Source: Cyanobium sp. T1B-Tous (GTDB taxonomy: Bacteria > Cyanobacteriota > Cyanobacteriia > PCC-6307 > Cyanobiaceae). From it: a stretch of DNA of 64,000 nt. The notes beneath the pieces were generated by a model. It saw nothing but the letters and a program-made list of their open reading frames with translations, did not search any database and was not told where the DNA came from. The number at the start of each line of letters is the position of its first letter. Positions within the stretch are counted from its first letter, which is position 1. The DNA is taken from contig NZ_JAGQBE010000005.1 of the NCBI RefSeq assembly GCF_024345475.1, positions 1 through 64,000 on the forward strand. Reading direction: 5' to 3'. Of this stretch, positions 42,526 through 63,566 are shown one piece after another. A program made the translations under genes and the position numbers.

Positions 42526-42741
42526 TCAGCCCAGGTCCCGCTTCAGCACCACGCAGAGGTAGTCGGGGGCTTTGTAGCGACTGGGCAGGCAGATGTGCAG
42601 CTGCTCCAGTCGGCTCCAGCACACCGTGCGCTGGATGGCGGCCACGGTCTTGCCTTCCTTGAGCAGAAGGCGCAGCGCTTTGCAGTACAGCGAATAGTTG
42701 GCTTCGAGTTCCCCGATGGTGAGTCCCTGGCTGCTGCTCAT
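42526..42741 (-). CDS. DUF3136 small protein (copy 1)
   Basis: A 71-aa protein of DUF3136, a family seen mainly in picocyanobacteria. Shared core with the copy at 52933: TIGELEANYSLYCKALRLLL, AAIQRTVCWSRLEQLHICLP and SRYKAPDYLCVVLKR. Predicted helical; function unknown. ATG at 42741 was chosen because the longer frame upstream is not conserved in copy 2. It lies 12 bases after the stop of the antiporter reading into the RND pump. Confidence 0.8.
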   Translation of the reverse strand: MSSSQGLTIGELEANYSLYCKALRLLLKEGKTVAAIQRTVCWSRLEQLHICLPSRYKAPDYLCVVLKRDLG

Positions 42742-42798: not shown

Positions 42799-44136
42799 TC
42801 AGTCCCCTGCCGGGGCCACCAGTCCAAGCCGCACGCACAGCCGGGGCAGGGTGAGGCCCTGCACCAGCAGGTTCACCAGCACCACGATGAACACGATGCT
42901 CTGGGCGTTCTGGGCCAGGGCACCCACCGCATCCGCGGAAACCCCGCGCAGGTGGCTGATCTGATTGACGGCGTTGTACGAGAGAGCCAGGGGCACCGCC
43001 CCCCGCAGCCCGCACCAGGACACGAACAGGCTCTCCTTGCGGTTGAACGGAGAGAGTGGCTGGAAGACCAGCACGCTGAAGGGCCGTACCACCAGCATCA
43101 GCACCGCTGCCGTGGCGAGTCCCACCGGCAGGGCGGGCACCAGGCTGGCGGGGGTAACCAGCAGACCAAAGATCAGGAACAGGCAGATCTCGGCCATGGT
43201 GTTGAAGGGGAGCAGGGCTTCCTGGATGGATTCGTGGTTGAGCTCGGTCTGCCGGTAGCGCATGTTCGCCATCAACAGGCCGGTGGTGTACACCGCGATC
43301 AGCCCGGCACCGCCCAGCAGCTGGCAGCTGCCGTAGTCGACAAAGGCAATCGACATGGCCACGATCAAGAGCTGGGATCGGTCCTGGGCCAGCTGATCGA
43401 TCACGAACCGGGCCACGTAGCCAAACAGGGCACCGATCACCAGCCCACTGCCCACCTGCTGCACAAAGCTGCGGAGCGCATCCACGACCACCCCGGCCGC
43501 ACCCATGGCGGCCCCATCGGCCTGGCCCGTGGTGAACAGGCCCGCCACCAGGCCGAACAGCAGCAGGGCGGTGGGATCGTTGACGGAGGATTCGAATTCC
43601 AGCAGGTGTTGCAGCCGCTCCGGCACGAGCTGCCGCACTGAGGCCAGCACGCTGATGGTGGCCCCGGCATCGGTGGAACCCAGGCAGGCCGCGATCAGCA
43701 GGGCCGCTCCCAGGGGCATCGCATCCAGGCTCCCCGGGGCGATGGCATCCCCCCCTGCCGAGGACAGCAGCCAGATCAGACCGCCGAGCAGCAGGGTGGC
43801 CAGCGCCACGCCCCCCACGGCCAGGGCCAGGCCGTAGTGGAGAAAGCCCCGGATGGCCTGGATGTCTGTTTTCAGGCCGGCATAGAAAAGCAGCAGGGCA
43901 AGGGCGAAGACATGCAGGTTCTCCGCCTGCTGGTGGGTGATGTCGAGGTAGTTGATGTTGATCGCCAGCCCCAGCACCAGCACCCCGAGGATCGCCGGCA
44001 CCCCCACCTGGATCGAGAAACGGCTGATCGCCAGGGTGCCCAGAAACAGCAGCCCGATGAACAGCACCTGCCCTTCCACCGGAATGGTGCCGATGTCGAC
44101 GCCCTCGGTGGTTTGGGCCAGAAGGGCGGGGCCCAT
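42799..44136 (-). CDS. CPA1-type K+(Na+)/H+ antiporter (NhaP2/CvrA-like)
   Basis: A 445-aa antiporter with LFYAGLKTD, the acidic ESSVNDPTALLLFG ion site and FVSWCGLRGAVPLALSYNA signature of CPA1 K+/H+ antiporters. Unlike the E. coli NhaP2, it lacks C-terminal TrkA-C domains. The ATG shares one base with the pyrF-pyrE stop (TGATG), so the two are translationally coupled, an odd pairing of pyrimidine synthesis and ion exchange. A GTG directly upstream is an alternative start. Confidence 0.87.
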   Translation of the reverse strand: MGPALLAQTTEGVDIGTIPVEGQVLFIGLLFLGTLAISRFSIQVGVPAILGVLVLGLAININYLDITHQQAENLHVFALALLLFYAGLKTDIQAIRGFLHYGLALAVGGVALATLLLGGLIWLLSSAGGDAIAPGSLDAMPLGAALLIAACLGSTDAGATISVLASVRQLVPERLQHLLEFESSVNDPTALLLFGLVAGLFTTGQADGAAMGAAGVVVDALRSFVQQVGSGLVIGALFGYVARFVIDQLAQDRSQLLIVAMSIAFVDYGSCQLLGGAGLIAVYTTGLLMANMRYRQTELNHESIQEALLPFNTMAEICLFLIFGLLVTPASLVPALPVGLATAAVLMLVVRPFSVLVFQPLSPFNRKESLFVSWCGLRGAVPLALSYNAVNQISHLRGVSADAVGALAQNAQSIVFIVVLVNLLVQGLTLPRLCVRLGLVAPAGD

Positions 44137-45626
44137 CACGCTGGGTCCGAACCGTCAGCGGCCCCCAGGGTGGCGGCTTGGGCATCGCTCAGCCGGCCCG
44201 CGCCGTGGAGCACCCGGGTGATCCGCGCGATGTCGAGCACCGCATGGCAGCGATACCCGGCTGCCGCCAGTCGCTCCCGGGCCCGGCGGTCATGGTCGCC
44301 GCCGTGGTCGATGAACACCACCACGTCCTGCACCACCAGCCCCGAGCTCTCGAGCTTGGCAATGCCCTCGAGCACGCTGCCCCCGGTGATCAGGATGTCG
44401 TCCACCACCACCACCCGGTCGCCCTCGTCGAAATCCCCCTCGATCAGGCGCCGGGCCCCGTGGGCCTTCACCTCCTTGCGCGGGTAGATCAGCGGCTTGT
44501 GCAGCTGCAGCGAGAGGCCCGTGGCCGTGGGCAGGGAGCCATAGGGGATGCCGGCGATGCGGTCGAAGTCGAGCCCCTCCAGCTGGTCCGCGTAGGCGTG
44601 CAGCACCCGGTGGAAGAGGTTGGGGTCGGAGATGATCTGGCGCAGGTCGACGTAGTAGTTGAAAACGGCTCCAGAGGCCTGCACGTAGTCGCCGAAGAGC
44701 AGGCAGCCGATGTCGAACAGGTCGACGATCAGGCTTTCCAGGGGGTCGGCGGCCCGTTCGCTGCCCGGCAGCCACAGCACACAGGCGTTGGCATCGCGCT
44801 GCTCAGCGTTGGCCAGCCACTGCTCCCGCTTGTGGGTGATCGCGTGCTTGAGGGCCTCGGCCCGGGTGGCCATGTCGTCTTCCACCAGCAGGTTCTGGGG
44901 CAGGGGCAGCAACAGCCCGTCGGCGGCCGCACTCAGGCCCGCCTGCAGCATCGCCTCCAGCTTCTCCTCTTCCCCCCAGAGGCTGCGCAGGATCAAGAAG
45001 CGCTCCGGCGCCTCCGCCCGCACCCGGGCCAGCACCTCCGGATCGCTGGTGCCCACCTCCAGCAGCAGCTGGTCGGGTGTGGCCCACAGCTGGGTTTCGC
45101 GCACGATCCGCACATAGAGCGGGTCGCTCTCATCGGGGTGGTGCTGAATCACCCGGGCCGCCTGGTTGGAGCTGTGGCAGGTCATCACCACCGCCTTGCC
45201 CGGGTAGAGCAGGAAGGGGGCGGCGATGTCCTGGCCGGCCAGGGGCGAGAGGGTCACCGCATCGGCCCCCAGCTCCTTGAACAGGTAGTGGGCCAGGGCC
45301 GAGGAGGAGTTGAGGTCGCCGTGCTTGGCGTCGACGATCAGGGGCAGGTCGGGGGGCACCAGGTCGCGCACCTCCAGCAGCAGCTCCAGGCCCACCGGGC
45401 CCAGGGCCTGGTAGAACCCCAGGCTGGGTTTGTAGGCGCACACGTGGGGGGCGGTGGCTTCGATCACCGCCTTGATCCAGTGGCGGGCCTGGCTGAGGAA
45501 GGAGCGCCCGGCCAGGCCGCGGCGGGCCGCCCAGTTCTGCAGCATCTCCGGGTTGGGGTCGAGCCCGGTCACCAGCAGCGACTGCCGGTCGGCAATGGCA
45601 TCGGTGAGTTGAACGAAGAAGCCCAT
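44136..45626 (-). CDS. pyrFE: Bifunctional OMP decarboxylase / orotate phosphoribosyltransferase (PyrF-PyrE)
   Basis: A 496-aa fusion that catalyses the last two steps of UMP synthesis. The N-terminal half (about 1-270) is a type 2 OMP decarboxylase with LLVTGLDPNPEML and IVDAKHGDLNSSSALAHYL. The C-terminal half is orotate phosphoribosyltransferase with the PRPP motif VVVVDDILITGGSVLEG (about 410-426). The order decarboxylase-transferase is the reverse of animal UMP synthase and is known from cyanobacteria and trypanosomatids. pyrC, another gene of the pathway, lies 6 kb away. Confidence 0.93.
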   Translation of the reverse strand: MGFFVQLTDAIADRQSLLVTGLDPNPEMLQNWAARRGLAGRSFLSQARHWIKAVIEATAPHVCAYKPSLGFYQALGPVGLELLLEVRDLVPPDLPLIVDAKHGDLNSSSALAHYLFKELGADAVTLSPLAGQDIAAPFLLYPGKAVVMTCHSSNQAARVIQHHPDESDPLYVRIVRETQLWATPDQLLLEVGTSDPEVLARVRAEAPERFLILRSLWGEEEKLEAMLQAGLSAAADGLLLPLPQNLLVEDDMATRAEALKHAITHKREQWLANAEQRDANACVLWLPGSERAADPLESLIVDLFDIGCLLFGDYVQASGAVFNYYVDLRQIISDPNLFHRVLHAYADQLEGLDFDRIAGIPYGSLPTATGLSLQLHKPLIYPRKEVKAHGARRLIEGDFDEGDRVVVVDDILITGGSVLEGIAKLESSGLVVQDVVVFIDHGGDHDRRARERLAAAGYRCHAVLDIARITRVLHGAGRLSDAQAATLGAADGSDPA

Positions 45627-45721: not shown

Positions 45722-47839
45722 TCAGGTCAAGGCACCCCCATCCAGGCGCCGGATGGCCACAACCCCTGGTCGGGGTGGGCGGCCCGGCACTCCGGAGGGC
45801 CAGTTTGAGCCGAGCGACACCTGCCGCTGCTGCTCAAAGGGTTGGCCCTCCCTGTCCATCAGCTGATGGGTTTGCCATGCACTGGCATGGCCCTGGCGGG
45901 GTCCCTGGGTTTCGCCCGGATGCTGCACCGCCAGAAAGAGGGTCTGGCCCGCTGCATCGAAGCAGGGGCCGCAGAGTTCACAGTCCATCGGGCCGATGGC
46001 AAAGCAAAGTGCCGCCCCGGCCTGGGCCCCTGATCGGGGGAGCAGCCAACAGCTGTTGTTGCCAAACACCTCGAGATCGCCGCTGCTGGAGCGATCGGTG
46101 ACCATCCAGAGATTCCCAGCAGGATCGAAGGCCAGGTTGTCGGGGTTGCTGAAGCCCAGGCCACCTTGCCAGGGGGTGCCACCGGTGCCCACCATCCGCC
46201 AGTGAAACCTGGAGCCTCGAGTCCAACCGCCGTCGCTGATCCGCATCAGCCAGCCATGGGGCCAGTGCACTTCGCCGGCCGGGCCCCGGAAGATCGCCGG
46301 ATCGCTGCTGCCGCTGCTGTTGCGGCCAGCGGCTGTGAAGGCGATCAGGAGGTCGCCATTGCGCGGATCGATGTCAGTGTCTTCGGGGCGGGCGGCCGGC
46401 GTGGCCCCGGCGGCATTGGCGGCGAGGTGGGCGTCGATCAGGATCGCTCCCTGGCTCGTGTAGAGATCGCCGAGGCTGGCGAAGCGCTCGCGGTAGGCCG
46501 CTACGGCTGCGTCGTTGGTCAGGGCCTCGGCGCCGCTGCGCTGGCGATCGCTGTGGGGCACCAGCGTGGATTGTTCAAAGCCGAAGCTGCTGAAGTGGCT
46601 GGGCGTCAGGGGGGCAACGGGCGTGCCGGGATCCAGGGGGATCCAGTGGCCGGTGCCATCGGCGTCGAAGTGGGCCGCCTCCAGGCGGCCTTGCTCCAGC
46701 AGGCGGGAGTTGGCGCGATCGCGGGGATCTGCCACCACGTCGTTGCTCACAAAGCGGTAGAGGTGACCGCCATGGCGGTCGCAGCCGGAGTACACCACCA
46801 GTGGCTCACCCGGGCGGGCCCGTACGGCCACCGCCTCATGCCGGAAGCGGCCTAGCCAGCTGTGCTTCACCGCCGGTTGATCAGGGTGGCGGGGATCAAA
46901 TTCCACCATCCAGCCGTATTTGTGGCCGGCCAGGCCGAAGGGATTCCCCAGACCCTCCACCCGCTTGCCATCCCAGCGGAAGGGGCGCTCACTCGGGGAT
47001 GCCGGTGAGCCGTCGGCAAACACCGCTTCACTCACTTGGTCCTGAAAGTTTTCCTCGGCGCTGAGCACCGTGCCCCAGGGGGTGGTGCCGCCGGCGCAGT
47101 TGGCGAACGTGCCCACGATCCGATCTCCCAGGCCATCGCTATAGCCCTGGGGGGTTGGCTGGCGGAACACCCCGGCCGCTGGTCCACTGCAGCGCAGGGC
47201 CTGGGCCGGCTGCCGCCAGCCGCTGAGGCCGGTGATGCGCCGCTCAAAGCGGCTGCCCTGGTGGCGGCGCCAGCCGTTGCCGGTGCGTTCCAGTTCCAGC
47301 ACGCCGATGCCCAGATCCGCCATGGCCGCCTCGGCGACCTCCAACACCAGGGGGCGCAGGGGATCGCCGCTGGCCAGTTCGGCCAGGTTCACCTGGCCGC
47401 CGCGTGCAGCCAGGCCCTCGCGGAGTTGGGCCAGGGGCAGGGATCGGTTGCTGATTTCTTGGAAGCCGGCGGCCCAGGGGATCGGGCTGATGTACTCGAA
47501 ATTGACGCTCAGCAGGGCCCGATTGCCCAGCTCCAGCAGGGCCAGATAGTCGTTATTGAAGCCGAAGCGACCATCGGCCAGCGGATCGCCCCACACGGCC
47601 AGCAGCTCGGCTCGGTAGCCCTCCGGCACCACCAGTCGATCCTCCACCACGGCACGGGCGTAGTGCTGGCGCTGTTTCGTGGCGCTGAGCTTGTCGTCCG
47701 GCAGCGGCAATGGTGGCTGCAGGGGGACGAAACCCCGCTGCGCGGCGGACTGGCCTGCCAGGGCGGACCCACCGGCTGCCACAGCCCCGATGCCGAGCAG
47801 TTCCAGGAGCTGGCGGCGGCGCAGACGCTGAACACTCAT
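45722..47839 (-). CDS. phoX: PhoX-family alkaline phosphatase (TAT-exported)
   Basis: A 705-aa protein with a twin-arginine signal (RRRQLLELLGIGAVAAGGSA) and an AQ-type cleavage region. The rest matches the PhoX (DUF839) family of Ca2+/Fe-dependent phosphomonoesterases, with FNNDYLALLELGNRALLSVN, GTFANCAGGTTPWGTVLSAE, the E in SAEENFQD, and NPDNLAFDPAGNLWMVTDRS. It releases phosphate from organic esters outside the cell. Its ATG overlaps the upstream gene's stop by four bases. It is the last gene of a four-gene operon with a Pho-box-like site at the head. Confidence 0.9.
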   Translation of the reverse strand: MSVQRLRRRQLLELLGIGAVAAGGSALAGQSAAQRGFVPLQPPLPLPDDKLSATKQRQHYARAVVEDRLVVPEGYRAELLAVWGDPLADGRFGFNNDYLALLELGNRALLSVNFEYISPIPWAAGFQEISNRSLPLAQLREGLAARGGQVNLAELASGDPLRPLVLEVAEAAMADLGIGVLELERTGNGWRRHQGSRFERRITGLSGWRQPAQALRCSGPAAGVFRQPTPQGYSDGLGDRIVGTFANCAGGTTPWGTVLSAEENFQDQVSEAVFADGSPASPSERPFRWDGKRVEGLGNPFGLAGHKYGWMVEFDPRHPDQPAVKHSWLGRFRHEAVAVRARPGEPLVVYSGCDRHGGHLYRFVSNDVVADPRDRANSRLLEQGRLEAAHFDADGTGHWIPLDPGTPVAPLTPSHFSSFGFEQSTLVPHSDRQRSGAEALTNDAAVAAYRERFASLGDLYTSQGAILIDAHLAANAAGATPAARPEDTDIDPRNGDLLIAFTAAGRNSSGSSDPAIFRGPAGEVHWPHGWLMRISDGGWTRGSRFHWRMVGTGGTPWQGGLGFSNPDNLAFDPAGNLWMVTDRSSSGDLEVFGNNSCWLLPRSGAQAGAALCFAIGPMDCELCGPCFDAAGQTLFLAVQHPGETQGPRQGHASAWQTHQLMDREGQPFEQQRQVSLGSNWPSGVPGRPPRPGVVAIRRLDGGALT

Positions 47840-48831
47840 GGTGGGTGGGGGCTTGCGGGGTGGATCTGCTGGCAGGCGGCCGTGCGCCGAGGGGCCAGGC
47901 GGGCCAAGTGGTTCGCCTGCAGGGGATTGAAATTGTCGTCGCTTCCCAGGACCAGGGTTGGCCGACCATCGCTGAGCGGCGGCCCTTCCAGCAGGACTTC
48001 CCAGTTGTCGTCCGGTAGCCCCAGCTGACCCAAGTCCCACTGTTGCCGCGGGGGCAGGGGGTTGGCCTGGGAGCGCTCAGCGGGCCAGGGATAGAACACC
48101 AGGCGCGCCTGCCAGGTGCCTGGGGGCTCAAAGCGGCGCCAGATCCCCAGTAGGGCCTGGCCCTGCTGGGTTGACCTGACCCCCAGCAGGTCGGTGAGCC
48201 CCCAGCTGCCCGGCGGGATGGCCAGGGGCTGCAGCTCCCGCGGCGCCAAGTTGCCGTGCCAGGGCTCCTGCCACTGGAGCAGCCTCACCCGATCGGGTGG
48301 ATCCTGTTGTAGGGGCCTTTCAGCGGCCATCAGCAGAGGGCCCCCGGGCTTCACGGCAGTGAGCGATTCGGGGCCGGCGTTGCTGCCCAGCCCATGACCC
48401 GCACCAACCCGCCAATTCAGAGGCAGGGGCACTTCCTGGCGCAAGACCCCCGTCTTCAGGTCGAACCGCAGCAGTGCCGCTGGGCGCCCCTTGGCGTCTG
48501 GCCCGTCCAGGCGTCCTTCGCTGGCGATCCAGAGGGTGGGCTCCAGCGCCGAATCCCCCATCACCAGGCCCTCGCCATCAAGGGCGGTGGGGCTCGAGAG
48601 GGGCAAGGGGGGTAGGAGGGTGAGCCCGGACAGACCGCCATCTTTCAGACCTCGCCAGCGGCTGATGCTCCCGGATGGACTATCGCTCAACAACCAAAGC
48701 TCGTCGGGACCGCTGCGGTAGACCCCCGCCGAGAATCCACCACCCGCCGCGGGTGGCAGCCGCACCTGCTCCACCACGTCCCACCCCGCGCTCAGGGGAC
48801 AGGGCAGCAGCTCGGCAGGGGGCAGGATCAC
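47836..48831 (-). CDS. Esterase-like activity of phytase family protein
   Basis: A 331-aa beta-propeller protein of the phytase-like esterase family (PF13449). Marks include LWLLSDSPSGSISRW, LDGEGLVMGD, TLWIASEGRLDGPDAKGRPA, NAGPESLTAV and LVLGSDDNFNPLQANHL. It probably binds metal and cleaves phosphate or phosphodiester substrates; exact activity unknown. No signal peptide is evident with the GTG start at 48831, and the beginning of the frame (ILPPAELLPCPLSAGWD) may be the remnant of a lipobox-like region. Its last codon overlaps phoX. Confidence 0.78.
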   Translation of the reverse strand: MILPPAELLPCPLSAGWDVVEQVRLPPAAGGGFSAGVYRSGPDELWLLSDSPSGSISRWRGLKDGGLSGLTLLPPLPLSSPTALDGEGLVMGDSALEPTLWIASEGRLDGPDAKGRPAALLRFDLKTGVLRQEVPLPLNWRVGAGHGLGSNAGPESLTAVKPGGPLLMAAERPLQQDPPDRVRLLQWQEPWHGNLAPRELQPLAIPPGSWGLTDLLGVRSTQQGQALLGIWRRFEPPGTWQARLVFYPWPAERSQANPLPPRQQWDLGQLGLPDDNWEVLLEGPPLSDGRPTLVLGSDDNFNPLQANHLARLAPRRTAACQQIHPASPHPP

Positions 48832-48843
48832 GGAACGCGGGGA

Positions 48844-49020
48844 TCAGGGAGCGTCGCCCAGGCCATCGCGGTACAGCACGTCGCACACCTTCAGAATCTG
48901 GCTGGACCGGCCATAGGGCTCCATCTCTCGATAGGTGCTGCGGGTCAGCAGCTGGTTGCAGCCCACGGCGGCCAGGGGAATGGCGGCAATGGCCTCAGGG
49001 ATCGTCAGGGTGGACGTCAT
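48844..49020 (-). CDS. Small protein (58 aa) of the phoX operon
   Basis: A 58-aa protein beginning TSTLTIPEAIAAIPLAAVGC and ending KVCDVLYRDGLGDAP. It has two cysteines and a weakly hydrophobic N-terminal half. No known domain. It lies 17 bases after the cNMP-binding gene and 12 bases before the phytase-like gene on the same strand, so it belongs to the putative four-gene operon. The coding pattern matches its neighbours and no other gene occupies the space. Confidence 0.55.
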   Translation of the reverse strand: MTSTLTIPEAIAAIPLAAVGCNQLLTRSTYREMEPYGRSSQILKVCDVLYRDGLGDAP

Positions 49021-49037
49021 GGACGGCAGGGCGGGGC

Positions 49038-49433
49038 TCACTGGGCCTGCGCTTGACGCAGATCCTTGAGGCGTCGCTCCAGCGAGGCGATCAGCTCCAG
49101 GCTGAACATCGGGAGGGCTTCCATCGCAAACAGGAAGGCCTCGCGGTTCATCACCAGCAGCCGGGTGGGCTGAAGGGCGGTGGCGGTGCCGTGACGGGTG
49201 TGGCCGCTCTGCACCAGCGCGCCCTCCCCGAAGCAGCGGCCCGCGCCCAGCAGCTCTTGACCCTTTCCCGACCAGTTGAGGCTCACCTGGCCCTCCAGCA
49301 CCCCAAACAGGCACTCGCCGTGCTCGCCCGCCTGGAAGATCACCTCTCCCGGTTCCACCATGCGAATGGGGGCTTCGGGTTCGAGCAGCTGCATGCTGCG
49401 CAGGATCTGTTCGTCGACAGAGGGCGTGGCCAT
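49038..49433 (-). CDS. Cyclic-nucleotide-binding domain protein without DNA-binding domain
   Basis: A 131-aa protein composed of one cNMP-binding (CRP-like) beta-roll: MVEPGEVIFQAGEHGECLFG, GVLEGQVSLNWSG, the phosphate-cassette-like FGEGALVQSGHTRHGTATA and a helix FSLELIASLERRLKDL. There is no helix-turn-helix, so it cannot act as a classical CRP regulator. It may bind cAMP or another ligand and signal to partners. It heads the phoX operon, with a Pho-box-like repeat about 50 bases upstream of the ATG at 49433 (a TTG at 49469 is possible). Confidence 0.82.
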   Translation of the reverse strand: MATPSVDEQILRSMQLLEPEAPIRMVEPGEVIFQAGEHGECLFGVLEGQVSLNWSGKGQELLGAGRCFGEGALVQSGHTRHGTATALQPTRLLVMNREAFLFAMEALPMFSLELIASLERRLKDLRQAQAQ

Positions 49434-49482
49434 GGCGAACCGCGGAAGCGTCTTCTCAGCCTGATCCAATCAGCGCGTGTTC

Positions 49483-49501
49483 TCGTTAAGGACAGGTCAA
49501 G
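49483..49501 (-). promoter_or_regulatory. Pho-box-like tandem octamers upstream of the phoX operon
   Basis: On the minus strand, CTTGACCT and CTTAACGA lie 11 bases apart (three-base spacer). This matches the tandem PyTTAAPyPy(T/A)-type octamers bound by the cyanobacterial PhoB/SphR response regulator. It lies 50 bases upstream of the ATG of the cNMP-binding gene. Inferred from pattern only. Confidence 0.6.
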
Positions 49502-49593: not shown

Positions 49594-50070
49594 ATGGTCC
49601 AGACCCTCTCCTCGCTCCACCCCAACCCTGGATGGGATGCATCGTCCGACTCTCTTGCTTCCCCGATTCAGCCGACCCTCGGCAAACACTGCATTCTTGA
49701 GCTCTACGGCTGCAGCAGCGTCAAGCTCAACGACGAACCCTTTCTCAGGGCCACCATCACCGCCGCAGCCAAGCGGGCGGGTGCCACCCTGCTCAACCTG
49801 ATCACCCATCGGTTTGATCCCCAGGGGGTCACAGGATTGGCCTTGTTGGCCGAATCCCATATCTCCATTCACACCTGGCCGGAGTTTGGCTATGCGGCTG
49901 TGGATGTGTTCACCTGTGGGGATCACACCATGCCCGAGCGGGCCTGCGCCGTGCTGGCCCAGCAGTTGGAGGCCGCCCAGCAGACACTCACCAGCCTGGA
50001 ACGCCAAACCCCGCTACCCAGCGCGCCGGGCGAGCGCATGCCCAGTCCGCCCTTTCGCGCACCGTTCTGA
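49594..50070 (+). CDS. speD: S-adenosylmethionine decarboxylase proenzyme
   Basis: A 158-aa prokaryotic AdoMetDC, the source of aminopropyl groups for spermidine. The self-cleavage site is [12 protein letters not shown]: Ser88 becomes the pyruvoyl cofactor after cleavage between Glu87 and Ser88. The [10 protein letters not shown] motif supplies the catalytic Cys108. The ATG at 49594 adds about 25 residues before the conserved [11 protein letters not shown] block, longer than usual; the start is not certain but no better one exists. It is divergent from the phoX operon. Confidence 0.93.
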
Positions 50071-50094: not shown

Positions 50095-51699
50095 ATGACG
50101 GGTTCTATGGGTGGCCTACTCAGCGCCACCGGTGGCCTCGGCCTGTTCCTATTGGGAATGGGCCTGATGACCGAGGCCCTGCGCAGCCTGGGGGGCCATC
50201 AACTCCGCCAGGCGCTGCTGGGCTTCACCCGCTCCCCCTGGAGCGGGGCGGCGGCGGGGGCGATTGGCACAGCCTTGGCGCAGTCGTCCACCGCCACGAC
50301 CGTGGCCACGGTGGGTTTCGTGAGTGCTGGGCTGCTGAGTTTCCAGGCCTCCCTTGGCATCATTTTGGGCGCCAATGTGGGCAGCACCGGCCTTGGCTGG
50401 CTGGTGGCACTGCTGGGCATCAAGCTCGACCTGGCCCGGCTGATGCTGCCTCTGGTGCTGGTGGGTGCTGCCCTGCGGCTGCTGGGGCGCGGTCGCCAGG
50501 CGCTGGTGGGGCAGGCCCTGGCCGGTTTTGCCTTGCTGTTTGTGGGCATCGGTGCTCTCCAGCAGGCGATGGCGGGCCATGGAGTGCTGCTCGATTCAGG
50601 CCGCTTCGATGCGGCCAGCGGCGGCGGGCGGCTGCAGCTCTTGCTGCTGGGCCTGCTCAGCACCGTGATCACCCACTCGTCGGGGGCGGGGGTGGCCACC
50701 ACGTTGGCGGCCATGGCCGCCGGGGCCATTGGCCTGCCCCAGGCCTGCGCCCTGGTGATTGGCATGGACCTCGGCACCACGGTGACCGCCCTGATGGCCT
50801 CCCTTGGCGCCAGCCTCAGTGCCCGACGCACCGCGGCGGCCCATGTGATCTTCAACCTGTTCACGGCGGTGGTGGCCTTCCTGCTGCTACCGGCCTACCT
50901 GGCCCTCCTGCAGGGTCTGTGGCCAGCACTGGCGGTGCGGGATCCGGAATTCGCCCTGACTGCCTTCCACACCGGTTTCAACCTGCTGGGGGTGCTGGTG
51001 GTGCTGCCGATCACGGGCCCCTTTGCAGCCCTGATCCGGGCCCTGGTGCGGCCGGATCGGGGCCGCCTCATCGACGAGTTGGCCGACACGCCGCCGGCCG
51101 ATCCCCTCGCGGCACTGGGCCAGGCCCGGGCTGCCCTAGTGACCTGGCTGCAGGAGTTGCTCCAGGTGCTGCGCGATGGATTGGCCAATGGTCATGGCGG
51201 CAGCCCCCGACGCAGCGAGCGGCAGCTGGCGCTGCTGCAGGCCGACCTCGACCGGCTGGAGCTCTTTCTGGATCAGATCCATCTCACGCCAAGCCAACTG
51301 CCGGCCCATGGGGCCCTTTTGCATCTTCTCCATGGTCTCGACCATCTTCAGCGGCTCCACGAGCGCTGCGAAGAGGAGCAGGATCGGCTGCGCACCGCCG
51401 CCACCAGCACCAGCCTGGCCCATGAGCGCCAGCAGCTGAGCGCCACCCTGGAGGAGTTGCCAGGGCTGGTGCAGCAAGGCCAATGGCTCCAGGCCTGTTC
51501 TCTGGTCAGTGCCTGCGCCCAGGCGATGCATCGCCGGGTGGGCACCTACCGCCAGGAGGTGTTGGCGGCGGTGGCCCGTGGCGAGTTGGATGTGGATGGG
51601 GGCACGGTGCGGCTCGAGGCGATCCGCTGGCTGCGGCGGGTGAGCCTGCATCTGGAGCGCGCCTGTCACCATCTCGGGGCGATTGCGGCTCAAGATTGA
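50095..51699 (+). CDS. Na/Pi-cotransporter family protein with PhoU-like tail
   Basis: A 534-aa membrane protein with the duplicated Na_Pi_cotrans repeat: GTALAQSSTATTVATVGFVS and TVITHSSGAGVATTLAAMA, both with the QSS/HSS signature that binds Na+ and phosphate. About 190 C-terminal residues are helical and PhoU-like (LLHLLHGLDHLQRLHERCEE). It might mediate phosphate uptake or, as in some bacteria, efflux. GGAAGAGG lies upstream of the ATG. No Pho-box was found in the 24-base gap to speD, with which it may be cotranscribed. Confidence 0.87.
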   Translation: MTGSMGGLLSATGGLGLFLLGMGLMTEALRSLGGHQLRQALLGFTRSPWSGAAAGAIGTALAQSSTATTVATVGFVSAGLLSFQASLGIILGANVGSTGLGWLVALLGIKLDLARLMLPLVLVGAALRLLGRGRQALVGQALAGFALLFVGIGALQQAMAGHGVLLDSGRFDAASGGGRLQLLLLGLLSTVITHSSGAGVATTLAAMAAGAIGLPQACALVIGMDLGTTVTALMASLGASLSARRTAAAHVIFNLFTAVVAFLLLPAYLALLQGLWPALAVRDPEFALTAFHTGFNLLGVLVVLPITGPFAALIRALVRPDRGRLIDELADTPPADPLAALGQARAALVTWLQELLQVLRDGLANGHGGSPRRSERQLALLQADLDRLELFLDQIHLTPSQLPAHGALLHLLHGLDHLQRLHERCEEEQDRLRTAATSTSLAHERQQLSATLEELPGLVQQGQWLQACSLVSACAQAMHRRVGTYRQEVLAAVARGELDVDGGTVRLEAIRWLRRVSLHLERACHHLGAIAAQD

Positions 51700-52932: not shown

Positions 52933-53157
52933 ATGCCCGTTGCCCCCAAGCCCACGATCGGCGAACTGGAAGCTGGCTATTCCGGCTGCTGCAAGGCGCT
53001 GCGTCTGCTGATTCGGGAGGGCCGCAGCATCGAGGCGATTCAGCGCACGGTGGCCTGGGAGCGCCTCACCTTGCTCCACAAGTGCCTGCCCACCCGCTAC
53101 AAGGCCCCCGACTACCTCTACGCCCTGCTCAAACGGGAAGCGTCCCAGGCGGCCTGA
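52933..53157 (+). CDS. DUF3136 small protein (copy 2)
   Basis: A 74-aa homologue of the protein at 42526-42741. Shared cores are TIGELEAGYSGCCKALRLL, IEAIQRTVAWERLTLLHKCL and TRYKAPDYLYALLKREA. A single-domain helical protein of unknown function. It is divergent from pyrC. Having two members within 10 kb suggests an old duplication with different regulation. Confidence 0.85.
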   Translation: MPVAPKPTIGELEAGYSGCCKALRLLIREGRSIEAIQRTVAWERLTLLHKCLPTRYKAPDYLYALLKREASQAA

Positions 53158-56906: not shown

Positions 56907-57111
56907 CGGCGCCCGTACGCCCTCGCCCTCTGGTTGGGCTTCAGGTGGCGTGGGACGCGACCCCGCAGTGGTCACACGAATCAAGCCTAATGACCCAAAA
57001 ATTAGGGCCTTCTGTTTAAGGAGTGGTGAAGACTCGCTGGCGTGTGGCTTGCGGCACAGGTGGCTTGAGGAGACGGGCCGCACCATGCCTAGGAGGAGTT
57101 GGAGGTAGGGC

Positions 57112-57258
57112 ATGGATCACTCCCTGGCGAGCCGCTGGACCCAGGTGGTGCTATGCCTGCTGATTCAGGCCAGCATCGTGGGCGGTGGCGAGGTGCTGAA
57201 CCGCTGGCTGGCCCCAGCCCCCCTCTCGCCGTGCTGCGCCCCACCCCTGGTGCTCTGA
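57112..57258 (+). CDS. Small membrane-type ORF overlapping the corA start (48 aa)
   Basis: A 48-codon frame with an excellent Shine-Dalgarno (GGAGG at 57101-57105, six bases before the ATG). It encodes a single hydrophobic segment (WTQVVLCLLIQASIVGGGEV) and a C-terminus rich in proline and cysteine (LAPAPLSPCCAPPLVL). Its last 28 bases overlap the likely corA start (GTG 57231). A seven-codon frame, 57085-57108, reads MPRRSWR with tandem AGG codons just ahead. The arrangement suggests translational coupling or a leader-peptide control of corA. It could instead be a plain membrane micropeptide. Confidence 0.5.
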   Translation: MDHSLASRWTQVVLCLLIQASIVGGGEVLNRWLAPAPLSPCCAPPLVL

Positions 57259-58331
57259 ACTCCCGCCTCCTGGAGGAGCGCCCCGCCGACCTGCCGGCCC
57301 ATCTCTTTGTGTCGGGAGGGCGGCAGCAAACCTGTTTCAGTGCCGTGCTGTTTGAGCCGGAGGGGCCCCGGCTGTTGCCGCTCGAGTCGCCGGAACAACT
57401 GCACCAGCTGCACCGCCTCGGCTACCCCCTCTGGGTGCGGGTGATGGGCCTGGGCGATCGGCAGCGGGTGGAGGCCATGCTCGCGGTGCTGCAGGTGCCC
57501 TCGATGCTGCTGCCCCCCTTGCTCGAGGTGCCGCAGCGCTCGCGGGTGGATGGCCTCGGCGAGGCGTTGATCGTGGTGCTGCACCGGCTCAGCTTCGCCC
57601 GCGATCCCCTGCATCTGCTCAGCGCCCAGGTGGGTTTGCTGCTGTTGCCCAACCTGTTGGTCACCTTCGAGGAAGCGGCGGCCGGGGAGTCGTTTCCCGA
57701 GCTCACGGCGTGGCTGGAATCGCGGGTGGGGGCGGTGGAACACCGCGACCTCGACGACATCCTCCACTTCCTGGTGGATGAACTGCTCGATGCCCTGTTT
57801 CCGATGCTGGAGCAGATCGCCAACCGCCTCGATGACCTGGAGGAGGCTGCCCTGCGCGACCCCAAGCCCAAACTGCTAGCGCGGGCGTTTGTGCATCGCA
57901 GCAACCTGCGCACCATCCGCAACCAGGTGTGGCCGTTGCGTCACCAGATCCGGGTGTTGCTGCGCCAGCGCCAACAGCTGCTCGGGGCGGAGGCCCTGGT
58001 GGGTTTTCAGGAGATGGCCGATCTGGTGGAGCTGTTGTTTGAAAACTGCGAGCTGCTGCGCAATCAGTGTGATGCCATCACCCAGGCCTATGCGGCCAGC
58101 GTGGGCAATCGTATGAACCAGGTGATGAAAACGCTCACGATCCTCACCAGTATTTTTGCTCCACTCACCTTCATTGGTGGCATTTATGGCATGAACTTCG
58201 CCAACATGCCCGAGCTCAGCTGGCGCTATGGCTACCTCTACGCCCTGCTGCTGATGGCAACCGTGGCCCTGATTCAGTCCTACTGGCTGTGGCGGCGCGG
58301 CTGGTTTCAGGATTGGACGGCTCCCCGCTGA
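57231..58331 (+). CDS. corA: CorA-family Mg2+/Co2+ transporter
   Basis: A 366-aa CorA protein: a cytoplasmic alpha/beta funnel, long stalk helix around LRTIRNQVWPLRHQIRVLLR, and two C-terminal helices flanking the gate motif YGMNFANMPEL, the GMN filter that selects hydrated Mg2+. The GTG at 57231 is the best start; no ATG exists before the conserved region, and the longer frame reading upstream overlaps the leader ORF in another frame. Regulation may involve the overlapping small ORF. Its stop is two bases before a Pho-box-like element of the next gene. Confidence 0.9.
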   Translation: MLRPTPGALNSRLLEERPADLPAHLFVSGGRQQTCFSAVLFEPEGPRLLPLESPEQLHQLHRLGYPLWVRVMGLGDRQRVEAMLAVLQVPSMLLPPLLEVPQRSRVDGLGEALIVVLHRLSFARDPLHLLSAQVGLLLLPNLLVTFEEAAAGESFPELTAWLESRVGAVEHRDLDDILHFLVDELLDALFPMLEQIANRLDDLEEAALRDPKPKLLARAFVHRSNLRTIRNQVWPLRHQIRVLLRQRQQLLGAEALVGFQEMADLVELLFENCELLRNQCDAITQAYAASVGNRMNQVMKTLTILTSIFAPLTFIGGIYGMNFANMPELSWRYGYLYALLLMATVALIQSYWLWRRGWFQDWTAPR

Positions 58332-58333
58332 AG

Positions 58334-58352
58334 CACAACCTGGCCTTAACCG
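58334..58352 (+). promoter_or_regulatory. Pho-box-like tandem octamers upstream of sphX
   Basis: CACAACCT and CTTAACCG lie 11 bases apart immediately after the corA stop and 47 bases before the ATG of the phosphate-binding protein gene. The second half matches the PyTTAAPyPy cyanobacterial Pho-box well; the first is a weaker copy. Pattern evidence only. Confidence 0.55.
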
Positions 58353-58399
58353 CCCAGGTGCCTGGAAAGGCCCAGAGTTCTGTTGTCGTTGTGACCGTC

Positions 58400-59419
58400 A
58401 TGGGCCCTTTCCTGCGCCTTGCCTGGCTTGCCCCGATCCTGGTCGTGATGCCGGCGGGCGTCCTGGCAGCACCTGAGCCGATCCGCATCGGTGGCTCGAG
58501 CACGGTGTTCCCCGTGATGCAGGCGGCCATTGCGGCCTATCAGAAGGGCGGCGCCCATCGTCAGGTGCGCTTTGAGCTCAAGGAAACCGGCACCTCGGCG
58601 GGGTTCCGGCAGTTCTGCAGCGGACAGCTGCCCCTGGCCAACGCCTCGCGTCCGATCAATGCCAAGGAGCTCAAGGCCTGCGCGGCCAAGGGGGTGACCT
58701 TCCTGGAGCTGCCGATCGGTTTTGATGCGATCACAGTGGTGGTGAACCCCGCCAACACCTGGGCCTCGAGCATCACCACCCAAGAGCTCGCTCGGCTTTG
58801 GAAACAGGGGGCGGCTGGATCGGTGAAAAGCTGGAGCCAGGTCAACCTCGATTGGCCCAACCGGCCGATCCGGCTGTGTGGCCCAGGCAAGGACTCGGGC
58901 ACCTACGATTATTTCAACAAGGCCATCAATGGCGATGAAGATAATTCAAGGGCCGATTATTTTGCCAGCGAAAAAGACAATGAGCTGGTGGCCTGCGTCG
59001 CCAAGAATCCAGAAGCCCTGGGCTACTTCGGATTTGCCTATTACCAGGCGAATGCCAAGCGGCTGAAGCCCCTCAGCGTTGTGGGCAAGAGGGGGGCGGC
59101 CCTGCCTTCCGTGGCATCAGTTCAGAAAGAAAGTTATGTTCCCCTGTCCAGGCCCCTGTTTGTCTACGTCAACGACCGGGCCCTGCGGCAGCGGCCGGAG
59201 CTGCAGAAATTTGTGACGTATGTGATCCAAAACGGCCTCAGCTTGGTGAAGCGCGCTGGTTACATTCCCATGCCTTCCAGCACCTATATGTTGGTGGAAA
59301 GCAAGTTGTATCGGCACGTGGGCGGCACGGCCTTCGGTGGGGATCTCCCCGTGGGTCTCACCACCGGCCAGGCGTTGCAGCGCAGTCTCGAAAGCATCAA
59401 GAAACCCGCCTTCCGCTGA
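58400..59419 (+). CDS. sphX: Phosphate-binding protein, SphX/PstS family
   Basis: A 339-aa periplasmic binding protein with a signal peptide (FLRLAWLAPILVVMPAGVLA, cleavage near AAPEP) and the PstS-type start IRIGGSSTVFPVMQAAI. KETGTSAGFRQFCSG, ASRPINAKEL, LELPIGFDAITVVVN and LCGPGKDSGTYDYF line the phosphate site. The form resembles SphX, the high-affinity binding protein induced by phosphate starvation. A Pho-box-like site precedes it and a CHAD gene follows seven bases after the stop. GTG at 58391 is an alternative start. Confidence 0.87.
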   Translation: MGPFLRLAWLAPILVVMPAGVLAAPEPIRIGGSSTVFPVMQAAIAAYQKGGAHRQVRFELKETGTSAGFRQFCSGQLPLANASRPINAKELKACAAKGVTFLELPIGFDAITVVVNPANTWASSITTQELARLWKQGAAGSVKSWSQVNLDWPNRPIRLCGPGKDSGTYDYFNKAINGDEDNSRADYFASEKDNELVACVAKNPEALGYFGFAYYQANAKRLKPLSVVGKRGAALPSVASVQKESYVPLSRPLFVYVNDRALRQRPELQKFVTYVIQNGLSLVKRAGYIPMPSSTYMLVESKLYRHVGGTAFGGDLPVGLTTGQALQRSLESIKKPAFR

Positions 59420-59426
59420 GCTCGGC

Positions 59427-60395
59427 ATGGTGTTCCAGCCAGGTTCCCCACCCCTGAGCAACGGCCGGTTTGCCCGCGATCTGTTGCAGCGGCAGGTCGT
59501 CAAGTTGGTGCAGCTGCAGACACCGGTGTCCGAGGGCAAGGGAACCGAGCCCCTCCATCAGATGCGGGTCACCATGCGCCGGCTGCGCACCACGGTGGTG
59601 CAATTCGATTCGGCCCTGCAGCTGCCTCCGGCCATCAACGACCAGCGCCTGGCCAAATGGGTGCGCCGACTCGGGCTGGCGCGGGATCTCGACGTGCTGC
59701 GCGAGCGCCTTGAGGATGGCTTTTTGCCCCAGCTGCCCGAGGCCGAGGTGAGGGCCCTGCGGCCCGTGCTCAAGCAACTGCGCCGGGAGCGGCAGCTGGC
59801 CTACGGCCATGTGGTGGAGGTGCTGCAGAGCCGCTCCTATTTGGAGGGCCTGGCTCAGTTGCAGCGTTGGTTGAAACAGCCCGAATTCACCCGGTTGGGA
59901 GAGCAGCCGATCCGGGAGTGGGTGCTCGAATGGCAGGGGCCCTGCCTGGCCAGCCTGTTTCTCCATCCGGGCTGGCAGGTGAGCAGTGCGGAGGGCGAGG
60001 TGGAGGTGTTGCACGAGCTGCGCCGCCGGATCAAGCAGGCCCGCTATCGGCTCGAAAACCTGTCGGCCGTCGAGGGCGCTCAGACGGCCGGCTGGATCGG
60101 GCGCTTCAAGCAGGCGCAGGAGCTGCTCGGGGAATTCAACGACTTGCAGGTGCTGCAGCGCGCCATCCACGATCAGGTGCCCGGTCCGTTGGAGGAGGTT
60201 TTTCCCCAGTTGGAGTGGCTGCTGGTGCAGCATCAACGCCATTGCTGGGAGCAGTGGCGCGAGCTGGCCGGCGATCTGCTGCCGCCCAGCCAGCGGCAGC
60301 GTCTCTGGCGGGCCCTGCTGCCCAGGCCGTGGCTGGCCCGGTCCTGGTTCCTGGTGAAGAGCGGGTTAAGGCGCGCTGTGGCCCGCTTTGGCTAG
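59427..60395 (+). CDS. CHAD-domain protein (polyphosphate-associated)
   Basis: A 322-aa helical CHAD protein: HQMRVTMRRLRTTVVQF at residues 45-61 contains the HxxR(x3)RRLR basic patch, and a second copy is HELRRRIKQARYRLENL. CHAD domains bind polyphosphate and target granules; many occur near polyP genes. The gene is seven bases after the sphX stop, so the pair is probably one Pho-controlled transcript. It suggests linkage of phosphate import to polyP storage. Confidence 0.87.
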   Translation: MVFQPGSPPLSNGRFARDLLQRQVVKLVQLQTPVSEGKGTEPLHQMRVTMRRLRTTVVQFDSALQLPPAINDQRLAKWVRRLGLARDLDVLRERLEDGFLPQLPEAEVRALRPVLKQLRRERQLAYGHVVEVLQSRSYLEGLAQLQRWLKQPEFTRLGEQPIREWVLEWQGPCLASLFLHPGWQVSSAEGEVEVLHELRRRIKQARYRLENLSAVEGAQTAGWIGRFKQAQELLGEFNDLQVLQRAIHDQVPGPLEEVFPQLEWLLVQHQRHCWEQWRELAGDLLPPSQRQRLWRALLPRPWLARSWFLVKSGLRRAVARFG

Positions 60396-60426
60396 AGGTT
60401 GGATAGTTCTCTCCGTTGGTGAGGCC

Positions 60427-60609
60427 ATGCTGAGCCCCAACTGCTTTTGGATGTTGGACGAGGAGCGCCTGGCCGACCTGGGTGCCCTGCTGGTGTTCCG
60501 GCACTGGTTGCGTCAACAGCTGGCTGAACTGGCGGGCGAGGTAGATGCCACTGCCCTGAAGCCCCCGTCCGACGCTCCCGAAACGTCCTATGGCCGGCTG
60601 TTTTTTTGA
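60427..60609 (+). CDS. Hypothetical protein (60 aa)
   Basis: A 60-aa protein starting LSPNCFWMLDEERLADLGAL, with a polar helix and LKPPSDAPETSYGRLFF at the end. No domain recognised. Its ATG is 31 bases after the CHAD stop, so it may belong to the same transcript. The stop is embedded in a T-rich stretch. Confidence 0.5.
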   Translation: MLSPNCFWMLDEERLADLGALLVFRHWLRQQLAELAGEVDATALKPPSDAPETSYGRLFF

Positions 60610-60721
60610 TGCCGCGACATGTGTTCTGGAGCACCATCGGTGTGTAGCGCGCTTGCTCGTCGCTGCACATCACCCTCGATAGGTTGCGCGGGATTTCCTT
60701 TGTGAAATCACCCCTATCGGT

Positions 60722-60735
60722 GTGAGGACCCGATG
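60722..60735 (+). promoter_or_regulatory. Conserved 14-base leader/RBS of the first porin gene
   Basis: GTGAGGACCCGATG, containing the start codon, is identical to the sequence at 63682-63695 before the second porin. It includes a Shine-Dalgarno-like GAGGA. The identity of the leaders of two diverged paralogues suggests a retained translation signal. Confidence 0.6.
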
Positions 60736-62355
60736 ACCCTTTCCAAAAAGCTGCTGCTGGCCCTGGCCGGCGCCAGCCTGACGGCCCCCCTGGCCGCTTC
60801 TGCCCAAGATCTGGCTTCGTTGAACGGCTCTGCTGCCATCAACGACTACATGCAGCAGCAAGACGTGGATCGCTTCCGCGCCTGGGAATCCAAGAACCAG
60901 GTGACCAGCGTCAACCAGTTTTCCGATGTGCAGCCCACCGACTGGGCCTATCAAGCGCTGAGCAACCTGGTGGAGAAGTACGGCTGTGTGGCCGGTTATC
61001 CCAATGGCAAGTTCAAGGGCGGCAACGCCATGACCCGCTATGAAGCGGCGGCCCTGCTGAACGCTTGCCTCGATCGCATCTCCGAGGTCACCGACGAGCT
61101 CCAGAAGCTGCTCAACGAGTTTGACTCCGAGCTCACCGTGCTCACCTCCCGTGTGGATGGCCTCGAGTCGAAGGTGGGCCAGCTGCAGGCTCAGCAGTTC
61201 TCCACCACCACCAAGCTGAAGGGTGAGGTGAACATGATCCTGGGTGGGGTGCCTGATTATCCCCGTACCTCTAGCGGTACTCCTGACAAAACTGCCTTCA
61301 ACTACGACGTCCGCCTGAGCTTCGACACGAGCTGGACTGGTAAAGACCTGCTGCGTACCCGTCTGCGCAGTGGTAACTTCAGTTCTGCACCCTTCGGCTC
61401 CAGCAGCAACAACTTGTTCAAGCTGGATAAGGCTGAGACGGCCCGCGATGGTGCTCAGAGCAACGTTTGGATCGACCGTCTCTACTACACCTTCCCAGTG
61501 GGCAAGGAGATTAAGTTGACCGCAGGTACCCTGCTTCGGAACACCGAAGTGGTCGGTTTCTTGCCATCTGCGTACAAAGCCCAGATTCTTGATTTCTTTG
61601 GCCTAGCCGGTGCTCCGGGTGTCTATAACAAGGCTACCGGTGCTGGCTTTGCTGCTCAGTGGAAGCAAAGTGTGAAGAAGGGCAATCCCTACTTCACATT
61701 TGACACCAGCTACATCGCCGAGCGGGGTAACGACTCCACCACCGGCATGTTTAACAACGACGGTGCCCAGAATATCAATGCCCAGCTTGGCTTCAAGGGG
61801 CAAAATTATGGCGTGGCGCTCGGCTATCGCTATGGTTCCGAGGGCTCTCGCGTCCGAGTCGGGAATGGCTACGCAGGTAATGCCCTGGTGTCTGGTCAAA
61901 CCTCCAATAGCATGTCGGTGGGTGCCTTCTGGCAACCGCTGGAAACCGGTTGGATTCCCTCCATCAGTGTTGGCTATGGATTCAACGACATGAGCGGCAG
62001 CTACGCCACATCGGCAGATCCGCAACGCCGCTTCAGCTCCAGTCGCGCCGCCATGGATTCCCAGTCCTGGACCGTTGCACTGCAGTGGGATGACGCTTTC
62101 ATGAAGGGGAACTCCGCAGGCTTCGCCTTCGGCCAAGCCGCCAATCCCAACAACAATCCGACCACTGGATCTGCTTGTAACAGCACTTCAGTTTGCGCTT
62201 CCCCGAGCGATGGCTGGATGTATGAGATTTTCTATAAGTTCCAGGTGACCGACAACATTTCCATCACGCCTGCCCTTTTCTGGGTGCAGGATATGGTCAA
62301 GGACTCTGTTGGTGATGGATGGGGTGGTGTGATTCAGACTCAATTCCGTTTCTGA
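60733..62355 (+). CDS. SLH-domain porin (iron-uptake porin / SomA type)
   Basis: A 540-aa outer membrane protein. It has a signal peptide (KLLLALAGASLTAPLAASAQ), an SLH domain (VTSVNQFSDVQPTDWAYQAL through NAMTRYEAAALLNACLD) that anchors to peptidoglycan-linked polysaccharide, a short coiled coil (about 115-150), and an OprB-like beta barrel ending in VIQTQFRF, with a terminal aromatic. Such porins allow passage of small ions, including iron, in cyanobacteria. A paralogue begins at 63693. A strong terminator follows. The barrel region has lower GC than neighbouring genes. Confidence 0.9.
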   Translation: MTLSKKLLLALAGASLTAPLAASAQDLASLNGSAAINDYMQQQDVDRFRAWESKNQVTSVNQFSDVQPTDWAYQALSNLVEKYGCVAGYPNGKFKGGNAMTRYEAAALLNACLDRISEVTDELQKLLNEFDSELTVLTSRVDGLESKVGQLQAQQFSTTTKLKGEVNMILGGVPDYPRTSSGTPDKTAFNYDVRLSFDTSWTGKDLLRTRLRSGNFSSAPFGSSSNNLFKLDKAETARDGAQSNVWIDRLYYTFPVGKEIKLTAGTLLRNTEVVGFLPSAYKAQILDFFGLAGAPGVYNKATGAGFAAQWKQSVKKGNPYFTFDTSYIAERGNDSTTGMFNNDGAQNINAQLGFKGQNYGVALGYRYGSEGSRVRVGNGYAGNALVSGQTSNSMSVGAFWQPLETGWIPSISVGYGFNDMSGSYATSADPQRRFSSSRAAMDSQSWTVALQWDDAFMKGNSAGFAFGQAANPNNNPTTGSACNSTSVCASPSDGWMYEIFYKFQVTDNISITPALFWVQDMVKDSVGDGWGGVIQTQFRF

Positions 62356-62415
62356 TCCTTAGATCCCTTATCAGCTCCTCACGCAGTCCTCAACTGCCCC
62401 TCTCACACATCCAAG

Positions 62416-62441
62416 GCCTCCCCAGTCGGGGAGGCTTTTTT
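62416..62441 (+). terminator. Rho-independent terminator of the porin gene
   Basis: GCCTCCCC / GGGGAGGC stem with four-base loop AGTC followed by six T, 60 bases after the porin stop. Confidence 0.93.
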
Positions 62442-62562: not shown

Positions 62563-63537
62563 ATGACTTTCCTAAAGCGATCTTTTACAGCCCTGGTTTT
62601 TGCTGGTCTTGTTGGCGGAGCAGCTTCCCAGGCAGCTGTTCGTCTGGCCGGTGCGGGCGCCACATTCCCTGATGGTATCTACCAGCGTTGGTTTTCCATG
62701 CTGGCCAAATCCGGTGGCGTCAAAGTGAATTATCAGAGCATTGGCTCTGGTGGTGGCCGTAAGGCGTTCCTGAATGAAACGGTGGCCTTCGGTGCTTCCG
62801 ATGACCCGATCAGCGAAAAAGACATTAAGAAAGTGTCTCGTGGTGTGGTTCAGATCCCCACCGTGGGTGGCTCGATTGCTGTGGCCTACAACAAGTCTGG
62901 CTGCTCCCTGAAGCTCACCCAGAAGCAGGTGGTGTCGATCTTCATGGGATCGATCAACAACTGGAAGCAGCTCGGTTGTGGTGACGGCAAGATCACGGTG
63001 GTGCATCGCTCCGACGGTTCTGGCACCACCGCGGCCTTCACCGAATCGCTGCAGTCGTTCTCGAAAGAGTGGACGATTGGTAACGGCAAGTCGGTGAACT
63101 GGAAAGTGGGTGTGGGCGGCAAGGGCAATGAGGGTGTTTCCGGTACCATCAACACCACGGATGGCTCGATTGGTTATGTGAACCAGTCTTTCGTCAAGGG
63201 ACGTATCAAGGCCGCCGCCGTGCAGAACAAGGCCGGTGAATTCGTGCTTCCCACCGCTGCCTCCGGAGCCAAGGCTCTGGCCAGCATCAAGCTCGATAAG
63301 AACCTGGCTGGTACTAACCCCAACCCCTCCGCCGCGGGTGCTTACCCGATCGCCACGCTCACCTATCTCCTCTTCTACGCCAAGGGCAATGGAGACAAGG
63401 CAAAATCCTTGCGTGAGATGATCACGTTCATCCTGAGTGATAAAGCCCAGGCCCTGGCCGACGACCTCGGCTATGTGCCGCTGCGCGATTCGATCCAGGC
63501 TCAAGCCCAGAAAGCGGTGGCACGGATCAAGGAGTGA
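62563..63537 (+). CDS. pstS: PstS phosphate ABC transporter substrate-binding protein
   Basis: A 324-aa periplasmic binding protein. Signal peptide (FTALVFAGLVGGAASQAA), then LAGAGATFPDGIYQRWFSML, the SIGSGGGRKAFLNETVAFGA phosphate loop, VVHRSDGSGTTAAFTESLQ and GSIGYVNQSFVK, all characteristic of PstS. It delivers phosphate to PstCAB, whose genes are not in the window. ATG at 62563. A clear terminator follows. It differs from the SphX-like protein at 58400 in sequence, so the cell has two binding proteins. Confidence 0.94.
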   Translation: MTFLKRSFTALVFAGLVGGAASQAAVRLAGAGATFPDGIYQRWFSMLAKSGGVKVNYQSIGSGGGRKAFLNETVAFGASDDPISEKDIKKVSRGVVQIPTVGGSIAVAYNKSGCSLKLTQKQVVSIFMGSINNWKQLGCGDGKITVVHRSDGSGTTAAFTESLQSFSKEWTIGNGKSVNWKVGVGGKGNEGVSGTINTTDGSIGYVNQSFVKGRIKAAAVQNKAGEFVLPTAASGAKALASIKLDKNLAGTNPNPSAAGAYPIATLTYLLFYAKGNGDKAKSLREMITFILSDKAQALADDLGYVPLRDSIQAQAQKAVARIKE

Positions 63538-63566
63538 GTGTTCGGATCGTGTGATCCAGCTTTCAC

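Follow-up and report, generated by a model that had tools for sequence, protein, structure and literature searches.

A stand-alone cyclic-nucleotide-binding protein and a Pho-type box at the head of a phoX gene cluster in Cyanobium sp. T1B-Tous

Why should a cyclic-nucleotide-binding (CNB) domain without any DNA-binding part stand at the head of genes that end in an alkaline phosphatase? The question is raised by positions 45722-49501 of a 64,000-nucleotide stretch of Cyanobium sp. T1B-Tous (contig NZ_JAGQBE010000005.1; the whole stretch is called the window hereafter), where four open reading frames (ORFs) on the minus strand encode a CNB protein, a product of 58 amino acids (aa), a phytase-like esterase and PhoX, with gaps of 17 and 12 bases followed by a 4-base overlap. 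Here, we show that relatives of the CNB gene repeatedly adjoin phosphate genes, in several arrangements and in separate clades, and that the Pho-type box upstream of the four genes belongs with the CNB gene rather than with phoX. With confidence that we would place at about even, we suggest that the CNB protein is a Pho-induced sensor acting by protein contact, whose promoter would now also drive the phytase-like gene and phoX. An earlier note on this DNA had described the same layout, octamers, domain content and phosphatase identities, all of which the ORF coordinates, box scores and Pfam matches given below bear out.

49483..49501, minus strand: putative Pho-type direct repeat CTTGACCT-GTC-CTTAACGA, 50 bases 5' of the likely CNB start
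49038..49433, minus strand: CNB (stand-alone cyclic-nucleotide-binding) protein, 131 aa; PF00027, E 1.8e-17; start chosen from orthologues
48844..49020, minus strand: 58-aa ORF, deletion derivative of an about 141-aa TerB/DUF533-like protein, from alignment with the L040 protein
47836..48831, minus strand: phytase-like esterase, 331 aa; PF13449, E 5.9e-33; N-terminus compared with relatives
45722..47839, minus strand: PhoX alkaline phosphatase with an RR-type N-terminus; PF05787, E 1.5e-94 (longer ORF); solved PhoX 3zwu, E 7.1e-57

The CNB protein and the conserved box upstream of it

The predicted model of the 131-aa protein (mean predicted local distance difference test score, pLDDT, 93.4) is a complete CNB domain, with a full barrel and a long C-helix of 23 residues (108-130) at which the chain ends. 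PF00027 was its only Pfam match (63.5 bits against a cut-off of 27.5), and no helix-turn-helix (HTH) or other DNA-binding domain was found by Pfam in the CNB protein (131-143 aa). Fold and profile searches returned the CNB domains of CRP, PKG, PKA and channels. A TTG at 49469 was considered as the start and rejected, as orthologues start at the equivalent of the ATG at 49433. The same genome holds a second, distant stand-alone CNB protein of 132 aa (locus L049, 4580-4978).

The repeat at 49483-49501 differs from the cyanobacterial two-repeat Pho box CTTAACCTNNNCTTAACCT at three positions (13/16 identical). A matching box stands 5' of the CNB orthologue in all six genomes of one other genus (our group g31; orthologues 55-64% identical to the window protein) and, at that stringency, has no second copy in any of the six. 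Of the 10 genomes searched, 7 (the window genome and the six of g31) have the exact pattern CTTRANNTNNNCTTAAC a single time, always 5' of the CNB gene; it was absent from G189, G127 and G200 and from the regions 5' of pst genes, and its reversal was found in none of the ten. When 120-base upstream stretches were scored, a box of at least 12/16 was present at 9 of 28 CNB genes not linked to transaldolase (Tal), 9 of 34 Tal-linked ones, 1 of 17 phytase-like genes, none of 9 phoX genes and 2 of 129 control genes, counts that, like the proximity count below, come from related rather than independent genomes, so that nominal significance is overstated. The best box score of the non-Tal CNB promoters was 10.7, against 8.3 in shuffles. 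The box thus goes with the CNB gene and not with phoX, a result that qualifies the earlier idea of a phosphate-linked four-gene bundle; the phosphate link of the CNB gene has more support than the earlier note could draw on. The pattern CTTAACC-N9-CANNCT, with one mismatch allowed, marks no regulon, since it had 7 genome sites against 16 for its reversed control.

Gene order tells how the two parts came together. In g31, as far as the contigs reach, speD is divergent from ackA and CNB, followed on the opposite strand by genes for NDH2-like and DUF3136 proteins and, again in the ackA direction, by pyrC and pyrFE; box and CNB orthologue stand after ackA in all six genomes without phoX, and a TerB-like gene lies 3' of CNB in four of six loci (L039, L040, L042, L044). 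The window reads ackA, NDH2-like, DUF3136, pyrC, Na/Pi transporter, speD, CNB, relic, phytase-like, phoX, pyrFE, and synteny marks speD as an ancestral neighbour of the ackA-CNB unit. Because g31 synteny keeps box and CNB gene without phoX, the CNB unit predates its link to phoX, and the phytase-phoX pair came in behind it later. In a tree of 51 of the 62 CNB proteins, built without 11 Tal-linked sequences that were near-identical and without the split CNB from G189 (C150), the window protein and the six g31 proteins group together with support of 100/99. The earlier note had set a search for the four-gene order elsewhere as a refuting test beforehand; among 201 family and 16 genus genomes the order was found in the window genome alone, and we do not regard it as a conserved unit. 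The DUF3136 protein (75 aa) has two copies in the window (42532-42741 and 52933-53154), one adjoining pyrC as in relatives, and a PyrF-PyrE type fusion (orotidine phosphate decarboxylase and phosphoribosyltransferase) lies at 44136-45626.

Phosphate genes around the CNB family

The neighbours of CNB relatives vary. In L071 (genome G127) a SphX-like gene, CNB and phoX follow each other, and in L078 (G150, 3630-7867) and L079 (G189, 4085-7731) the CNB gene is directly 5' of pstC-pstA with a SphX-like gene divergent; pstC in these two loci has an 11/16 box of its own. L051-L054 carry CorA, CNB, TrkA-like, phytase-like and PhoX genes in this order, L055 has PPK1-like, PhoX and phytase-like genes beside CNB, and L045 and L070 combine a split CNB gene and a TerB-like gene with phoX a few kilobases away. 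In L045 (5933-6327) the split gene, which in G189 adjoins genes for TerB-like and AckA proteins, runs in two frames and is likely a broken copy. Longer contexts were drawn for chosen loci, and since L051-L055 and L071 were picked for phoX or phytase genes seen nearby in the match lists, the fair figure is that over all matches listed: of the 96 strong CNB matches listed in 65 genomes with phoX, 8 had phoX within 10 kb, against 0.69 expected under random placement. The count covers 124 strong matches listed, 96 of them in genomes with phoX, and 80 phoX places, short fragments being left out, and its eight cases represent no more than four or five distinct arrangements. The tree places the phoX-divergent (98/94), pstCA (100/100) and ackA/window (100/99) proteins in separate, starred clades; the SphX-PhoX-linked protein of L071 falls inside a glycogen-phosphorylase-linked clade, and the deep branches are weak.

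The window itself is, by its predicted gene content, a Pho island. Genes for CorA, a SphX/PstS-like protein, a CHAD protein, OprB-type porins and a PstS-like protein were seen at 57099-63998. The flanking and phosphate features are as follows.

49594..50070, plus strand: SpeD (S-adenosylmethionine decarboxylase), divergent neighbour; PF02675 and synteny
50095..51699, plus strand: Na/Pi cotransporter-like protein; PF02690
58334..58352, plus strand: second candidate Pho-type box, 5' of the SphX/PstS-like gene; 13/16 consensus positions
58400..59419, plus strand: SphX/PstS-like phosphate-binding protein; PF12849; start inferred
62563..63537, plus strand: PstS-like phosphate-binding protein; PF12849; 11/16 box at 62494-62512

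Further along the contig (C68:74066-77303, or 12066-15303 of L118) follow a PtrA-like gene, two response-regulator genes, the second PhoB-like, and a PhoR-like histidine kinase gene, names that we assume from domains and gene order.

These neighbourhoods could also be a product of history. The CNB protein would then serve carbon and energy metabolism as its sole role, and the phytase-phoX pair would merely have landed behind a promoter lent by accident in a much-shuffled region, without any CNB part in phosphate scavenging. Tal, glycogen phosphorylase or AckA is encoded directly 5' of the CNB gene in most loci, phoX-linked cases amount to only 8 of the 96 matches listed, and gene order around the CNB locus is heavily rearranged, all of which would be expected from such a history. 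It accounts less readily for CNB genes found with phosphate genes in several different arrangements and separate clades, and for a Pho-type box conserved 5' of the CNB gene even where no phoX is near. This alternative remains strong, and we hold it to be a real possibility, if not a probable one.

The regulator of the box and the 58-aa reading frame

We regard 49483-49501 as a probable, putative SphR/PhoB site, with a reservation on octamer number. It shares with the cyanobacterial Pho regulon and SphR Pho box (Su et al. 2007, PMC1906773) octamers of the CTTAACCT type, 3-base spacing and a place before phosphate genes; it differs in having two octamers rather than three or more and in that the first gene behind it encodes a CNB protein, and the term 'cyclic nucleotide' does not occur in the main text of that paper. 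Sites with at most three mismatches number three in the window, against 0.05 expected from shuffles: the CNB box, one just 5' of the SphX/PstS-like gene and one inside the end of the CHAD gene. Minus-strand repeats resembling the Pho box were seen at 60352-60370 (13/16) and 57013-57031 (12/16), with no obvious target on that strand. No box with at most three mismatches was found in the contig stretch L118, which carries the PtrA-like, PhoB and PhoR genes.

A direct repeat with 11-base spacing might instead be the site of another OmpR-type regulator of the RpaA/RpaB kind. The presence of two repeats only would suit such a regulator, as would the restriction of the exact CTTRANNTNNNCTTAAC to one CNB-upstream site per genome in 7 of 10 genomes, never 5' of pst genes, and the box-like scores at Tal-linked CNB copies. 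However, the window SphX-like and PstS-like genes have similar upstream boxes (13/16 and 11/16), and a PhoB-PhoR pair is located on the contig, so that we judge this reading unlikely and prefer a Pho box.

The 58-aa ORF, which the earlier note took for an unknown micropeptide, has no Pfam or NCBIfam match. Aligned with the 141-aa protein of L040, it agrees in its first and last residues and is identical at 36 of its 58 positions, with two in-frame gaps of 13 and 70 residues that account for the whole difference (141 - 83 = 58), and the longer gap removes the conserved TerB/DUF533-like core. We therefore consider it a deletion derivative without the core, which disposes of the micropeptide. The full-length relatives, found in L039, L040, L042 and L045, are about 134-153 residues long and show a weak DUF533/TerB resemblance, under Pfam cut-offs; in G140 a weak match to the ORF falls within a longer reading frame. 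Preservation of the frame through both deletions may be accidental or may serve translational coupling with the gene that follows. It is improbable that the ORF is no relic but a remodelled small protein that still functions: both deletions are in frame, no stop has arisen and the retained residues are 62% identical to L040, as high a value as for the intact CNB protein (62-63%), but the 70-residue core with the TerB/DUF533-like part has been lost, a pair of in-frame deletions is expected by chance once in nine, and the short form occurs in no second species, the ORF being matched at all in 2 of 201 genomes.

The phytase-like ORF opens directly past the stop of the 58-aa ORF, and comparison of its N-terminus with relatives revealed no signal peptide. 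PhoX, assigned by PF05787 and similarity to 3zwu, begins with RRRQLLELLG. An extracytoplasmic location is therefore supported by sequence for PhoX and not for the phytase-like protein, which leaves one of the two extracytoplasmic phosphatases of the earlier description. Among the 201 family genomes, phytase-like genes occur in 76 and phoX in 87, and the adjacent pair is common; in family, adjacency and order the window pair agrees with it, and it differs in its place behind a CNB promoter unit.

A proposed role for the CNB protein

The Glu and Arg of the phosphate-binding cassette of CNB domains hold the cyclic nucleotide. All 37 CNB proteins in the alignment have Arg80. The window protein carries both Arg80 and Glu70, and Glu70 is present in only three of the 37 (the window protein, L008 and L009); three further ackA-linked proteins have Gln at this position, and the usual residue is Ala among the Tal-linked and Val among the phosphorylase-linked proteins. 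The single CNB domains of CRP, PKA/PKG, the MlotiK1 channel and the CNB part of 5h5o share the full fold and the cassette Arg, and with the window protein the Glu too, whereas the window chain lacks an output domain. The window genome has nine class III cyclase matches, and the presence of such cyclases in 86 of 201 genomes does not separate Glu- from Gln-bearing proteins. Scanning contigs for the CNB protein yielded nothing beyond four remote loci in other bacteria. Our literature search on stand-alone and cyclic nucleotide-binding proteins in picocyanobacteria, with most subscription papers outside it, found no account of the CNB protein; the available part of PMC7522525 describes adenylate cyclases close to CRP or to a channel regulated by cAMP and does not treat it.

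We propose an ancestral transcription unit in a picocyanobacterial phosphate island, composed of Pho-type box, CNB and TerB-like gene, behind which the conserved phytase-like/phoX pair would have been placed directly in the window lineage, while the TerB-like gene would have been cut down, in frame, to a remnant of 58 codons. Upon phosphate starvation, the box-bearing promoter would be activated by SphR/PhoB, whose genes lie on the contig, and would probably drive CNB, relic, phytase-like and PhoX together. PhoX would be exported through its RR-type N-terminus and release phosphate, and the CNB protein would stay intracellular as a ligand-sensing subunit (for cAMP or a relative) that might tie phosphate acquisition to the carbon and energy state. 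Because it has no DNA-binding part, it would report by protein contact. Promoter activation and co-production of the four products are predicted from the DNA, and the protein-contact role from exclusion and neighbours.

Several observations weigh against this proposal. The four-gene order is unique to the window genome, two octamers are visible and a third was not seen at 49483-49501, whereas a minimum of three is described for SphR (PMC1906773), and no upstream box was found at phytase and phoX genes of other loci, L058 excepted. About half of the non-Tal CNB copies, ackA- or glycogen-phosphorylase-linked, have no close phosphate gene (L046, L074, L076, L077, L080-L082, L084-L086), the Tal-linked paralogue has none in ten loci with longer flanks, and Tal-linked copies nonetheless reach 12/16 in 9 of 34 cases. 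Finally, cAMP binding may not be a property of the whole family, since Glu70 occurs in 3 of 37 proteins and most have Ala, Val or Gln.

Among the closest known counterparts is PtrA, a CRP-family protein of marine Synechococcus with a role in phosphate stress (reported in the part of PMC11098088 available to us), which shares with the CNB protein the CNB-type fold and the phosphate-stress setting. The PtrA-like gene, one of four HTH_Crp_2 matches in the window genome, adjoins the PhoB-PhoR genes. The CNB protein differs from PtrA in having no HTH. That the CNB protein is an anti-activator pairing through its C-helix with this regulator is very improbable: a complete CNB domain, a 23-residue C-helix, the missing HTH and a PtrA-like gene about 25 kb off on the contig would suit it, but BLASTP returned no alignment between the two proteins and the CNB part of the PtrA-like protein matches PF00027 weakly.

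Overall, the case for an undescribed four-part control unit is weakened, and that for a general Pho-linked CNB family without a DNA-binding part is strengthened. We tentatively suggest that picocyanobacteria other than the Prochlorococcus type could possess such a family in their Pho regulon, through which a second messenger would feed into the control of phosphate and of carbon reserves, and that phosphate genes may have been captured by, or beside, a CNB unit several times independently, the window phoX operon being one such case. Candidate partners of the CNB protein are given by its recurrent neighbours: phoX, SphX-like, pstCA, glycogen phosphorylase, acetate kinase and transaldolase. If the family is Pho-induced and binds cyclic nucleotides, abundant picocyanobacteria would link a second messenger to phosphate scavenging by a route that bypasses DNA-binding CRP proteins of the PtrA kind.

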